Shown in pieces: positions 17,700 through 63,216 of a DNA stretch of 64,000 nt. This DNA comes from Phocaeicola oris. GTDB lineage: Bacteria; Bacteroidota; Bacteroidia; Bacteroidales; Bacteroidaceae. Every line of letters starts with the position of its first letter. Position 1 is the stretch's first letter. Below the pieces are notes generated by a model, which did no database searches, was not told the origin of the DNA, and saw only the letters and a program-made list of their open reading frames with translations. Location: the NCBI RefSeq assembly GCF_021295095.1, contig NZ_JAJLQX010000006.1, forward strand, positions 1 to 64,000. The letters run 5' to 3'. The translations under genes were made by a program, and so were the position numbers.

Positions 17700-17799
17700 T
17701 CATGCGTATGAGTTGACCGGTTCATGCGTATGAGTTGAGCAGTTCATCCGCATGAGTTGAGCGATTCATCCGCATGAGTTGAGCGATTCATGCGGATCA
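17700..17799. repeat. 22-bp dyad array, 5 cores
   Basis: Cores of 12 bp start at 17700, 17722, 17744, 17766 and 17788 (TCATGCGTATGA twice, TCATCCGCATGA twice, TCATGCGGATCA). They are separated by 10-bp linkers of the type GTTGAGCGAT, exactly 22 bp apart. The array ends in ATCACTTTT. It lies 38 nt after the barrel gene and upstream of the next promoter. The rest of 17800-17980 is AT-rich with nothing else visible. Confidence 0.9.
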
Positions 17800-17982
17800 C
17801 TTTTCCTCCGTCTCTTTATGACCATATTAATGAATCAAACAAAAGGGAAAAATACCTCACCACCATACTATACGACCGTATTCTACCCCCGTACGTCCTA
17901 CACAATCTCCCTGTTATTTCATCAAACTTATCAAAGTTACAAAAAATTATCACCCTTTTCTTGAATATAAACAAAATAGTTG

Positions 17983-25673: not shown

Positions 25674-25795
25674 TGACGCGGATGAGTTCTCTAACTCATA
25701 CGGATGAACCAAACAACTCATGCGGATGAACCGGACAACTCATCCGCATAAAATGAAGAAGTCATACGTATCACTTTTGCAACTCATACGGATGA
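25674..25795. repeat. 22-bp dyad array, 6 cores
   Basis: Cores start at 25674, 25696, 25718, 25740, 25762 and 25784: TGACGCGGATGA, TCATACGGATGA, TCATGCGGATGA, TCATCCGCATAA, TCATACGTATCA, TCATACGGATGA. Linkers are of the type ACCGGACAAC. The array opens with AAAAGTGA, the mirror of the ATCACTTTT that follows its fifth core. It lies between the terminator of the cstA operon and the susC promoter. Confidence 0.9.
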
Positions 25796-25914
25796 CTCTA
25801 TAAAGACTTTTGATGACTACGGGAACTTAACCGTATTTCATTACACATTCGTAAGCAGCGGAACAATAACCGGTTATGATTAGTCAACAGAAAAGCCCGA
25901 TATCCATCGGAAAC

Positions 25915-40710: not shown

Positions 40711-41079
40711 TTACTTCTTTTTATTCGACTCTTCTACCTCATGAATCAACTGTTTCAAATCATCCACCGATAAATCTTCTGCCTTCACCAGCGATGACAC
40801 AGCTCCCAAATAAGAATTGTTGAAGTACTTACTAATGACATTCTTCAGCGTACCTTTCTTGAACTCATCGCGTGTAATGGCCACCTCGTACAAATAAGTA
40901 TTGCCATATACACGATGCTTCAGAAATCCCTTCTCGTCAAGTCCGCGAACCACAGTAGATGCCGTATTTACATGTGGTTTCGGGTCGGGATATAACTGAA
41001 CCAAATCTTTCACAAACATGGAACCTTTCTCCCAGAAAAATTCCATTGCTTCTTCCTCTTTTGCTGTTAATCTTTTCAT
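40711..41079 (-). CDS. BlaI/MecI/CopY-family repressor
   Basis: A 122-residue winged-helix repressor. The DNA-binding domain (about 1-75: LTAKEEEAMEFFWEKG, VNTASTVVRGLDEKGFL) is followed by a dimerisation region (NVISKYFNNSYLGAVSSLVK) that in BlaI/MecI contains the protease-cleavage site. It should repress its own operon through the dyads at 41105-41141 until cleaved by, or by a process dependent on, the M56 sensor downstream. No beta-lactamase gene is present, so this is probably a general envelope-response pair. Confidence 0.92.
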   Translation of the reverse strand: MKRLTAKEEEAMEFFWEKGSMFVKDLVQLYPDPKPHVNTASTVVRGLDEKGFLKHRVYGNTYLYEVAITRDEFKKGTLKNVISKYFNNSYLGAVSSLVKAEDLSVDDLKQLIHEVEESNKKK

Positions 41080-41274: not shown

Positions 41275-41396
41275 TCACCTATGTGATTCATTTGTTTCAC
41301 CTATGTGATTCACTTGTTTCACCTATGTGAAACAAATAAATTATCCGCATGAGTTAAACGATTCATCCGCATGATTTCATCTACTCATAAGTTGCT
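41275..41396. repeat. Hybrid 22-bp dyad array, 5-6 cores
   Basis: Cores start at 41275, 41297 and 41319 (all TCACCTATGTGA), then 41341 (TTATCCGCATGA), 41363 (TCATCCGCATGA) and a decayed one at 41385. All are in one 22-bp register, so the CTAT-centred and CG-centred cores belong to a single repeat family. The array abuts the stop codon of the transporter gene (41396). Between it and the operators (41142-41274) I see nothing. Confidence 0.88.
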
Positions 41397-44926: not shown

Positions 44927-46327
44927 ATGAATGATAAAGAACACGTCGCACTCTGGAACCGCTGTTTACAGTTTATAAAAGATAACGGTATCAATGAGAC
45001 GGCTTTTAATACATGGTTCAATAACATTCGCCCTTTGAAGTATGAGAACAAAACCTTAACACTTGGGGTACCAAGTCCATTCTTCATCGAATATTTAGAG
45101 GAGAATTACTTAGGGGTATTAAGTGAGGCATTACATAAGGAGATTGGAAATGATGCCAAATTAATGTACCATGTATTAACCGATAGTACAAGTAATCAAT
45201 ACGTTGATTACCCGGGGAGTAACCGTTCGGCAGCTGTAACAGTGAAGCCTATAAAAGATGTCAATAAATCTCCCGACCCTTTAAAATCTCCGGAAGTTCA
45301 GGATCTGGATTCACATTTGAATCCGGACTATAATTTCGAGACTTTCATTAAAGGTACGAGCAATGAGCTTTCGCGTACAGCAGGAGAAGCCATCGCACAG
45401 CATCCGGCAAAATCATTTAACCCGCTGTTCCTATTCGGGCCATCGGGGGTAGGAAAAACTCATTTGGCCAATGCTGTTGGAACACGCATTAAAGAGCTGT
45501 ATCCGGAAAAGAGAGTATTGTATGTATCTGCACATCTTTTCATGATTCAGTATACCGATGCTGTCCGCACCAATAACTCGAACAATTTCATCAACTTCTA
45601 TCAGAGCATAGATGTTCTGATACTCGATGATGTTCAGGAATTTACAGGGAAGACTCAGACCCAAAACACGTTCTTCCACATCTTCAACCATCTACACCAG
45701 AACGGAAAGCAGCTGATAATGACTTGCGACCGCCCTCCGATGATGCTTCAAGGTATGGAAGACCGCCTTTTGACTCGCTTTAAGGGTGGATTGGTCGCCG
45801 AAATGTATAAACCTGATCTGGAGTTGAGAAGAAATATCCTGCGTAATAAAATCTGTCGTGACGGTTTGACCATCCCCGATGAGGTAATAAACTACATTGC
45901 CGAGAACGTGGAAGAGAGTGTACGTGAGCTGGAAGGAATCATCAACTCCCTCCTCGCACAGTCCATCATCTTTAAACGTGATATTGACCTCAGTTTGGCT
46001 GAACGGATTGTCCACAAGGCTGTCAAGATGGTAAACAAAAACATTACTATCGAGGAAATTATTCAGAAAGTATGCAGTCACTTCGGCATGGAGGAATCTG
46101 CAATTCATGCAAAGAGTCGTAAACGCGAACTGGTACAAGCCCGACAGATAGCCATGTATTTAGCAAAGAAACACACCGACAACTCTACGTCGAAAATCGG
46201 TTTAATCATTGGCAGAAAAGACCATGCCACTGTTTTACATGCGTGCAGAATGGTTGAGAATCAAGCACAAGTTGACAAGGTATTTAAGAGTGAACTGGAT
46301 GAAATTGAATCATCTTTGAAGAAATAA
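44927..46327 (+). CDS. dnaA: Chromosomal replication initiator DnaA
   Basis: AAA+ initiator that unwinds oriC. 466 residues with the normal order: domain I (about 1-85, [23 protein letters not shown]), a short linker, the AAA+ domain with Walker [15 protein letters not shown] and Walker [11 protein letters not shown] and sensor-II region, and domain IV with the DNA-binding signature [18 protein letters not shown]. Followed by a perfect 14-bp terminator. nrdJ, which supplies dNTPs, lies 1.4 kb downstream on the same strand and shares an upstream element. Confidence 0.98.
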
Positions 46328-46349: not shown

Positions 46350-46395
46350 AATAAGAGAGTATGCCCGAACAGACATACTCTCTTATTTATTTTAA
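46350..46395 (+). terminator. Terminator of dnaA
   Basis: Perfect 14-bp arms 46350-46363 and 46374-46387 followed by a T-rich tract. Confidence 0.88.
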
Positions 46396-46405
46396 CAGGA
46401 ATTCG

Positions 46406-46561
46406 ATGAAACAACAAAACTATGAGAATACCCGCGAAGGTAAAATACGTCCTTATGGAATGTTTAAACGATGTCTTTCCTCTTTCGTCAAATTCATTAA
46501 ATTTATCATCAAGATGACCGGTAAAAGTGATATGCGCCAATCGTTCAACTCATGCGGATGA
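46406..46561 (+). CDS. Candidate 51-residue basic small protein
   Basis: The frame starts MKQQNYENTREGKIRPYG and continues with a basic amphipathic stretch (MFKRCLSSFVKFIKFIIKMTGK). AGGA lies 7 nt upstream of the ATG. It begins just after the dnaA terminator with no TAnnTTTG box, and its last 34 nt run into the repeat array at 46528. Codon choice looks coding-like up to the array. It may be a small membrane-active protein or a chance frame. Confidence 0.3.
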   Translation: MKQQNYENTREGKIRPYGMFKRCLSSFVKFIKFIIKMTGKSDMRQSFNSCG

Positions 46562-46693
46562 ATCGTTCAACTCATACGCATGAACCGTTCAACTCATACG
46601 CATGAACCGTTCAACTCATGCGGATGAACCGTTCAACTCATACGCATGAATTGATCTACTCATACAGATGACTTTAGCAACTCATACATATCG
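46528..46693. repeat. 22-bp dyad array, 8 cores
   Basis: The longest array. Cores start at 46528 (TGATATGCGCCA, preceded by AAAAG), 46550, 46572, 46594, 46616, 46638, 46660 and 46682, strictly 22 bp apart. Sequences alternate between TCATGCGGATGA and TCATACGCATGA, decaying to TCATACAGATGA and TCATACATATCG at the right end. Linkers are mostly ACCGTTCAAC. It fills the convergent gap between dnaA and the nitroreductase gene. Confidence 0.92.
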
Positions 46694-55360: not shown

Positions 55361-55437
55361 TGATACGCATGACCGTGCCAAAGCATCAGAAGTTTTTGAC
55401 GATTCACGCGTATCAACCGGTATGATGATACGTATCA
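55361..55437. repeat. Degenerate 22-bp dyad array, 3-4 cores
   Basis: Cores TGATACGCATGA (55361), TCACGCGTATCA (55404) and TGATACGTATCA (55426, a perfect palindrome). The slot near 55383 is decayed and the first interval is 43 instead of 44, a one-base slip. Ends in ATCACTT like the other arrays. It lies between the convergent lipoprotein and bL9 genes. Confidence 0.7.
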
Positions 55438-63072: not shown

Positions 63073-63216
63073 TGATACCCGTGAACCGATAAAGTGATAC
63101 GTATGAATCAACCAACTCATGCGGACGAACCGGTCAACTCATGCGGATGAACCAATCAACTCATACGCATCAGTTGAGCAACTCATGCGTATCACTTCAC
63201 CCGTTCATACACATTG
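63073..63216. repeat. 22-bp dyad array, 7 cores
   Basis: Cores start at 63073 (TGATACCCGTGA), 63095 (TGATACGTATGA), 63117 (TCATGCGGACGA), 63139 (TCATGCGGATGA), 63161 (TCATACGCATCA), 63183 (TCATGCGTATCA) and 63205 (TCATACACATTG), all 22 bp apart. It fills the convergent gap between hemW and glmM. 63217-63321 holds nothing else visible. Confidence 0.9.

Follow-up and report, generated by a model that had tools for sequence, protein, structure and literature searches.

The intergenic arrays of 22-bp dyad units found in the window (the whole 64,000-bp stretch of DNA analyzed, G000:C47:1-64000, from a draft genome of 2.98 Mb in 50 contigs with 95% completeness) very probably constitute a MITE family with an internal minisatellite. 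A link between the arrays and IS982 is highly likely, and the explanation taken as a whole, namely, an IS982-moved MITE composed of a leader, 22-bp units and a tail, whose youngest subfamily moved recently, is considered likely. Rather than standing free, most of the arrays proved to be the middle of a dispersed element, whose leader, tail, terminal inverted repeats (TIRs) and target duplications (TSDs) had not been noticed in the initial annotation.

Element structure and distribution in the genome

All six intergenic arrays reported initially (17700, 25674, 41275, 46528, 55361 and 63073) were present at the places claimed (Table 1). There were 23 exact TSAYNCGNRTSA cores in the window, compared with a mean of 1.29 over 100 shuffles, and the earlier figure of about 34 cores must count degenerate units too. 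The leaders next to the arrays at 46506 and 17700 matched the element on contig C1 at 73% and 83%, respectively (BLAST). The array at 41275 matched the array and the start of the tail of the C1 element at 87–89% (BLAST), and no leader or tail module was recognized there by nhmmer at E ≤ 0.01; it is tied to the element through the array and tail start only. Neither module was recognized by nhmmer at the arrays at 55361 and 63073. A gene for a penicillinase-repressor-type regulator (PF03965, window 40711-41079) was located near the array at 41275. The Rfam scan of the window gave no matches at the gathering score, and a CRISPR reading of the arrays was ruled out, the units being tandem without spacers.

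Table 1. Coordinates of arrays, modules and terminal repeat in the window
Feature	Position	Strand	Characteristics
Array	17700..17799	-	Five exact cores, A-type units
Leader (L-module) belonging with array 17700	17800..17936	-	High-coordinate side of array; nhmmer positions 6-138, E = 2e-28 (copy belongs to nhmmer training set)
Array	25674..25795	+	Six units, five exact cores
Tail (R-module) beginning, weak	25796..25880 (end approximate)	+	nhmmer R-module positions 2-82, E = 1e-3
Mixed array	41275..41374	-	B-type units GTTTCACCTATGTGA.., then A-type units
Left terminal inverted repeat	46393..46410	+	TAACAGGAATTCGATGAA; 2 mismatches vs TAACGTGAATTCGATGAA; G000:C47:46393-46410
Leader (L-module) of MITE downstream of dnaA	46393..46527	+	nhmmer L-module positions 1-139, E = 4e-27 (copy belongs to nhmmer training set)
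Array downstream of dnaA	46506..46693	+	Five exact cores (46550-46649); 22-bp units number about 8-9
Short array	55361..55437	.	Three exact cores
Array	63073..63194	+	Six units, four exact cores

The family extends over the genome as a whole: a 28-bp array probe allowing up to three mismatches gave 262 matches in the 2.98 Mb, while the reversed control gave 0. The first 864 kb sampled contained 221 cores versus 14 in one Markov simulation, and the distances between paired cores were 22 bp (139 pairs), 44 bp (99) and 66 bp (65), with no pair 21 or 23 bp apart. When the sample was enlarged to 1.264 Mb, corresponding to about 42% of the genome, 91 distinct arrays were counted (95 before overlapping duplicates were merged), from which a genome total of about 200 arrays was estimated. 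The exact 22-bp period described for the window was kept across this sample, since 351 of 380 neighbor spacings in these arrays were 22 bp and 356 were an exact multiple of 22, with none at 21 or 23 bp. Furthermore, 18 full-length leader matches, chosen regardless of what follows them, were used as anchors; in all 18, every downstream exact core lay in one phase of 22, and the self-identity of the downstream sequence was 0.46–0.86 at lag 22 and at most 0.28 at 21 or 23. The array phase is therefore kept, via selection or via unit turnover, and because this held in all the leader-anchored copies, something may act on it.

The flanks of many arrays were repeated too, and the dispersed, non-coding design was leader (about 140 bp), a variable number of 22-bp units, and tail (about 125–160 bp). 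The TIRs of the element were AACGTGAATTCGATGAA...TTCGTCGAACTCACGTT; complete copies started with TAACGTGAATTCGATGAAATAACAG and finished with GAATTCGTCGAACTCACGTTA, the two ends being mutual inverted repeats. The left boundary of the leader was sharp: within the 864-kb sample, one copy was matched at 10 further places from query base 221–223 onward (BLAST). Within reach of the 91 arrays, a leader was recognized in 29 cases, a tail in 43, both in 18 and either in 54 (E ≤ 0.01), these counts including the 14 leader and 9 tail copies on which the module models were trained. Module matches away from arrays were rare for the tail (5 of 50) and absent for the leader (0 of 29). Arrays with no recognizable leader or tail at E ≤ 0.01 (37 of 91) were assumed to be decayed elements, bare arrays also being possible.

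Both TIRs, with no more than seven mismatches together, surrounded 9 of the 91 arrays, and the elements so delimited were 360–511 bp long, a length that cannot accommodate a gene of about 300 codons, so they have no transposase of their own. An exact 5-bp TSD (ATCTT, ATTAT, AAAAT or AAGAT) was present in four of the nine, with no more than one TIR mismatch in three of these and three mismatches in the fourth; in the remaining five elements, the TSD agreement was 1, 3, 1, 1 and 2 of 5 bases, and the copy at C4:45071 had only two TIR mismatches, yet no exact TSD. A further copy, on C12 outside the 1.264-Mb sample, was flanked on both sides by AATTT. The cross-element control gave 1.6% exact duplications, a value to be used as a guide only, since its 16 rows list most elements on both strands. 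The TIR pattern had 71 matches in the genome, compared with 2 for the control pattern; 12 of the 71 lay 127 bases or less from the end of a contig, as though the assembly had been interrupted by a larger repeat bounded by such ends. The features by which a MITE is recognized were found in the family: TIRs, TSDs in some copies, short length, ends common with a transposase-bearing IS, and an empty site.

The empty site was found beside dnaA, which in the window (44927-46327) directly adjoins the array at 46506. The gap between dnaA and the nitroreductase gene holding this array was 401 bp. In 11 of 15 dnaA loci examined, out of 34 fetched, a convergent nitroreductase gene followed after about 15–110 bp; two of the other four had no nitroreductase gene in the stretch examined, and two had it 3.2 kb off. 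No cores were present within 600 bp of dnaA in any of the 15 loci. Because the relatives' gap is short and core-free compared with 401 bp, it is most likely that this array arrived by element insertion. The nearest named relative returned for dnaA of the source genome was Phocaeicola abscessus (identity = 77%).

Types, symmetry and predicted folding of the 22-bp unit

Three unit types with one period were distinguished, namely, type A (TCAT NCGN ATGA), type B (GTTTCAC NTAN GTGAAAC) and a third, CACGTGCGTG-like type. Type B units occurred in four near-identical copies on contigs C3, C4, C12 and C33; their half-sites GTTTCAC/GTGAAAC resemble parS (ParB/parS), but they lie 4 bp apart. The third type, with CACGTGCGTG/CACGCACGTG cores, was represented by 8 arrays in 1.2 Mb according to TRF (G000 loci L070:7445, L072:1831, L075:14320, L090:4527, L091:12058, L103:4039, L176:5185 and L190:11576). 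Several of these arrays had the two ends AGGTGTA...TACACCT, and no leader or tail was seen at them by eye. It should be noted that two copies of ATTTAATTTCTACTATTGTAGAT, which appear to resemble Cas12a-type CRISPR direct repeats, were located about 64 bases apart just before position 14320 of L075 (G000:C33).

The initial annotation stated that the outer bases of the dyad co-vary, which for the most part was not borne out. The 199 internal units were distributed as TCAT..ATGA (124), TCAT..ATCA (48), TGAT..ATGA (15), TGAT..ATCA (3) and others (9). G at position 2 was found in 34 of 69 first units and in 19 of 199 internal ones, and C at position 11 in 41 of 60 last units and 51 of 199 internal ones. 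Thus, the outer bases track the place of the unit in the array, not one another. The pairing of TCAC with GTGA is real, but it is a property of the second unit type, GTTTCAC NTAN GTGAAAC.

The suggestion that the unit may form a hairpin gained support, with the hairpin best formed on one strand. In type A units, the left flank was mostly CAAC and the right flank had C or T at two places, which gives G.U or A-U pairs when taken on the GTTG strand. Over three flank positions in the 199 internal units, 254 cells formed G.U pairs on the GTTG strand versus 14 on the other, these cells being non-independent, as the units are related; at the flank base adjoining the core, 55 of the 199 had a plain mismatch. 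The predicted hairpin on the GTTG strand had a stem of about 8 bp, including G.U pairs, and the loop NCGN. For 55 arrays with at least four type A units and clear orientation, the mean fold z was −5.75 on the GTTG strand (53 of 55 arrays below −2) and −3.84 on the CAAC strand (45 of 55 below −2), the latter also being better than chance.

Among nine copies, the identity was 84% for cores, 74% for the leader and 63% for the linker, the core value being inflated, since arrays were found by their cores. The leader-anchored comparison in a fixed frame gave an identity of 0.36 downstream versus 0.76 in the leader; the former value conflates different unit types as well as offsets of one base, and is uninformative on cores. 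In a weak dyad-symmetry test of TRF consensus units, 12 of 70 period-22 and 13 of 14 period-44 arrays from the genome studied passed, and the same weak test was passed in relatives by 2 of 14 arrays with a period of 21–23 in G017, 1 of 2 in G041, 0 of 5 in G029 and 0 of 7 in G001; the 21–23-bp arrays of the relatives are therefore no more than candidates.

Probable IS982-family parent and related genomes

The starts of contigs C1 and C3 and position C5:15703 had the same end as the element, followed by the N-terminus of an IS982-like transposase. In the chimera G000:C1:1193-1844, the leader and array were joined to a 121-aa transposase remnant, which matched NF033520 (IS982 transposase) with E = 7.8e-7 and 28.9 bits, i.e., below the 130-bit cut-off; Pfam gave nothing in either of two transposase fragments. 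Six stretches of the genome matched NF033520, one of them above the cut-off (C13), and the ends of this intact IS982 copy differed from the MITE TIR by eye (TACGCGAGTTCGGG). Meanwhile, a complete IS982-like element in relative G037 (L165) had ends 3 and 4 of 17 bases off the MITE TIR, and its 307-residue frame was 49% identical to the C13 transposase. When a whole copy was compared by BLAST with 60 further genomes from the genus, only its last 28–48 bases matched, in 11 of them. The end thus appears to be common to the IS of relatives, and the array-bearing inside was not seen in those 60 genomes. Arrays were also located within about 200 bp downstream of two larger IS982 genes, intact G000:C13:15734-16815 and decayed C27:18655-19699, with an IS end of another type, judged by eye, between the gene and the array in both cases; this arrangement may have arisen by insertion beside or into a MITE.

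On this basis, an IS982-family transposase would move the MITE in trans via the common ends, and the number of units would grow and shrink through slippage or recombination. Insertions outside intergenic regions would be selected out. The units could pair with one another only if their spacing stays in register, and fold-back in RNA or single-stranded DNA might make the element cheap to carry or help its movement. As unit–unit pairing needs register, the hairpin seems the best account of why the 22-bp period is exact, an attribution that is offered tentatively from the predicted folds.

The array probe had one match in 79 relatives, in one genome (G029), and no match among phages and plasmids, and the strict two-unit pattern was absent from GTDB genome contigs, where the genome studied is possibly lacking. 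A profile of 22 arrays, built from sequence alone and scored on 67 candidates per genome with some places counted on both strands, gave matches in nine of the 60 other genomes from the genus (G029, 32; G005, 8; G001, 5; G006, 4; five genomes, 1 each), compared with 112 in the genome studied. Ten loci from six genomes were viewed: those of G001, G005, G006 and G017 had a 22-bp period with other linkers (TRF), and the period was absent at the loci of G029 and G092 (TRF). Both G001 and G005 had CATNCGNATG cores at a 22-bp period, and G006 had a closely related core. Other genomes of the genus thus appear to carry 22-bp arrays of other sequence (G001, G005, G006 and G017). In three G005 loci (L229, L238 and L243), the array TGCATACGTATGTGTAGCCCGA was followed by a common module; the common stretch, array included, was about 400 bp, of which about 300 lay beyond the array, with an identity of 74–82%, and it probably represents an array-plus-module repeat distinct from the element described here. 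Two of these three loci were near contig ends. The G017 loci (L270, L273, L278, L280, L281, L284 and L285) contained arrays of 21–23-bp units with palindromic stretches, e.g., GGTTTCCATATCAAGAACGTAC, of unrelated sequence, and the two loci L228 and L237 of G029 looked like long imperfect hairpins with CATGCGG/CCGCATG cores.

Placement among genes, alternative explanations and known systems

None of the 91 arrays was more than half covered by a gene called with the hexamer gene caller made for this analysis, which upholds the earlier statement that no array lies wholly inside a recognized gene. Of 127 convergent gaps, 31 held arrays, compared with 40 of the 702 tandem gaps and 19 of the 127 divergent ones, and a single array was at a sample edge; the excess in convergent gaps versus the rest (p = 4e-8) and the density of 0.95 arrays per kb of convergent gap, compared with 0.40 and 0.42 for the other gap types, indicated a convergent bias. 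Arrays in tandem gaps lay at a median of 108 bp from the 3′ end of the upstream gene and 303 bp from the start of the following one. After exclusion of the 12 of 40 tandem-gap arrays without clear orientation, 18 arrays were opposite to the gene direction and 10 the same, i.e., orientation was unbiased (p = 0.18). This placement could be read as the host having co-opted the arrays as two-way transcript ends or 3′ stabilizers between convergent genes, and AAAAG tends to precede first units and CTTTT to follow last ones; terminator-like calls overlapped two of the five window arrays scanned (17768-17797, plus strand; 25752-25717, minus strand; the array at 41275 was left out), but not the other three. 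However, the description of pneumococcal repeats gives BOX, RUP, SPRITE and IS as likewise over-represented between convergent genes (PMC3049150), so that parasitic repeats show such an excess too, the gap at C2:55857 has an ordinary terminator besides the array by eye, and arrays are not oriented with respect to genes; co-option of this kind is unlikely.

The exact spacing admits another reading, in which a dimeric host protein, nucleoid or domain-organizing, polymerizes along sites phased at two helical turns and the cell keeps the arrays. Cooperative protein binding is possible because the phase was kept in each of the 18 leader-anchored copies, and the absence of 21- and 23-bp spacings among 380 neighbors, the higher identity of cores than of leader and linker (with the core value inflated as noted) and the recurrence of CATNCGNATG cores at a 22-bp period in other species agree with it. 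Such a protein is nevertheless rather improbable, given that many arrays travel in a MITE, that two or three unrelated unit types share one period in one genome, that the G.U asymmetry suggests a single-stranded form and that the probe found a single match in the 79 relatives. Growth of plain minisatellites in place from chance palindromes, without transposition, would fit the 37 arrays lacking recognizable modules, but it is refuted for module-bearing copies by the leader, tail, TIRs, TSDs and empty site, and for the family it is highly improbable. Of the initial proposal of a dimer-binding site or hairpin with a chromosome-organizing role, the 22-bp-phased dyad and the hairpin stand, while the organizing role is not needed, because many of the arrays are borne by a transposable element (TIRs, TSDs, empty site), they are, like parasitic repeats, densest between convergent genes, and their orientation is unbiased.

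Several published systems were compared with the element. The remark that no named family has this form was nearly right, BrickBuilt of Porphyromonas gingivalis being the closest published design. It is described as a MITE with a minisatellite, having a leader and tail with small inverted ends and spacerless tandem units, and it has in common with the present element a Bacteroidales host, exclusively intergenic position, narrow host range and varying unit number (PMC4596501). Both families include copies that keep just the leader, just the tail or neither module, and the TIRs resemble those of IS in the genome (PMC4596501). As to differences, the BrickBuilt unit is 23 nt instead of 22 bp, its TIRs are those of ISPg1/ISPg9 of the IS5 family (GAGACCTTTGCA) instead of IS982-like, its duplications are GAAA or AAAA instead of 5-bp, and 19 copies are given for one strain, with occurrence also in P. 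gulae, compared with an estimated 200 or so here (PMC4596501). The published account of BrickBuilt copies has no transposase remnant, in contrast to one here, where several unit types also occur; the likeness to BrickBuilt is one of design (PMC4596501). MITECca01 of Cardinium is, like the present element, an IS982-derived MITE in Bacteroidota with the ends of its parent IS and lineage-specific spread (PMC9769881), but it is about 240 bp long and no internal array seems to be reported, the words 'tandem' and 'direct repeat' being absent from its main text (PMC9769881). REP/BIME with RAYT transposases are described as many short extragenic palindromes in mosaics, as here (PMC2817692, PMC3733652). 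Unlike them, the present element has TIRs with TSDs as its ends, and this candidate was rejected, Y1_Tnp (PF01797) giving 0 matches in the draft genome, with the control matched in 5 of 14 genomes. In pneumococcal BOX, the boxB unit is about 45 bp, i.e., longer than the present one. The BOX design of Streptococcus pneumoniae, boxA - boxB(n) - boxC, resembles that found here in its variable tandem middle (PMC3049150), and a predicted fold if transcribed and an excess between convergent genes are also given for it; the likeness is by description and concerns a different bacterium (PMC3049150). No 22-bp dyad array of Phocaeicola or Bacteroides was found in titles and abstract starts of the open-license literature, outside which most subscription journals lie.

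The three unit types, the array-plus-module repeat of G005, the CATNCGNATG arrays of G001 and G005 with the related core in G006, and the kept phase hint that dyad arrays phased at about two helical turns, with 22 bp here and 23 nt in BrickBuilt, may be a recurrent module that unrelated non-autonomous Bacteroidales elements repeatedly acquire or evolve, because the array would serve the element, as a chain of self-formed hairpins or as a place where a host protein docks; this is a speculative reading and on balance a somewhat doubtful one. The arrays belong to a familiar class of element, the MITE, whose form here is unusual and little described, and the point of interest is the recurrence of dyad arrays of about two helical turns inside such elements. 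Minisatellite-bearing MITEs would not be a Porphyromonas oddity, and the approximately 200 estimated arrays would make up a large part of the intergenic DNA of this genome. The family serves as a warning that strictly phased intergenic dyads need not be chromosome-organizing sites, and its many natural replicates provide a setting for asking why such arrays keep exact phase.
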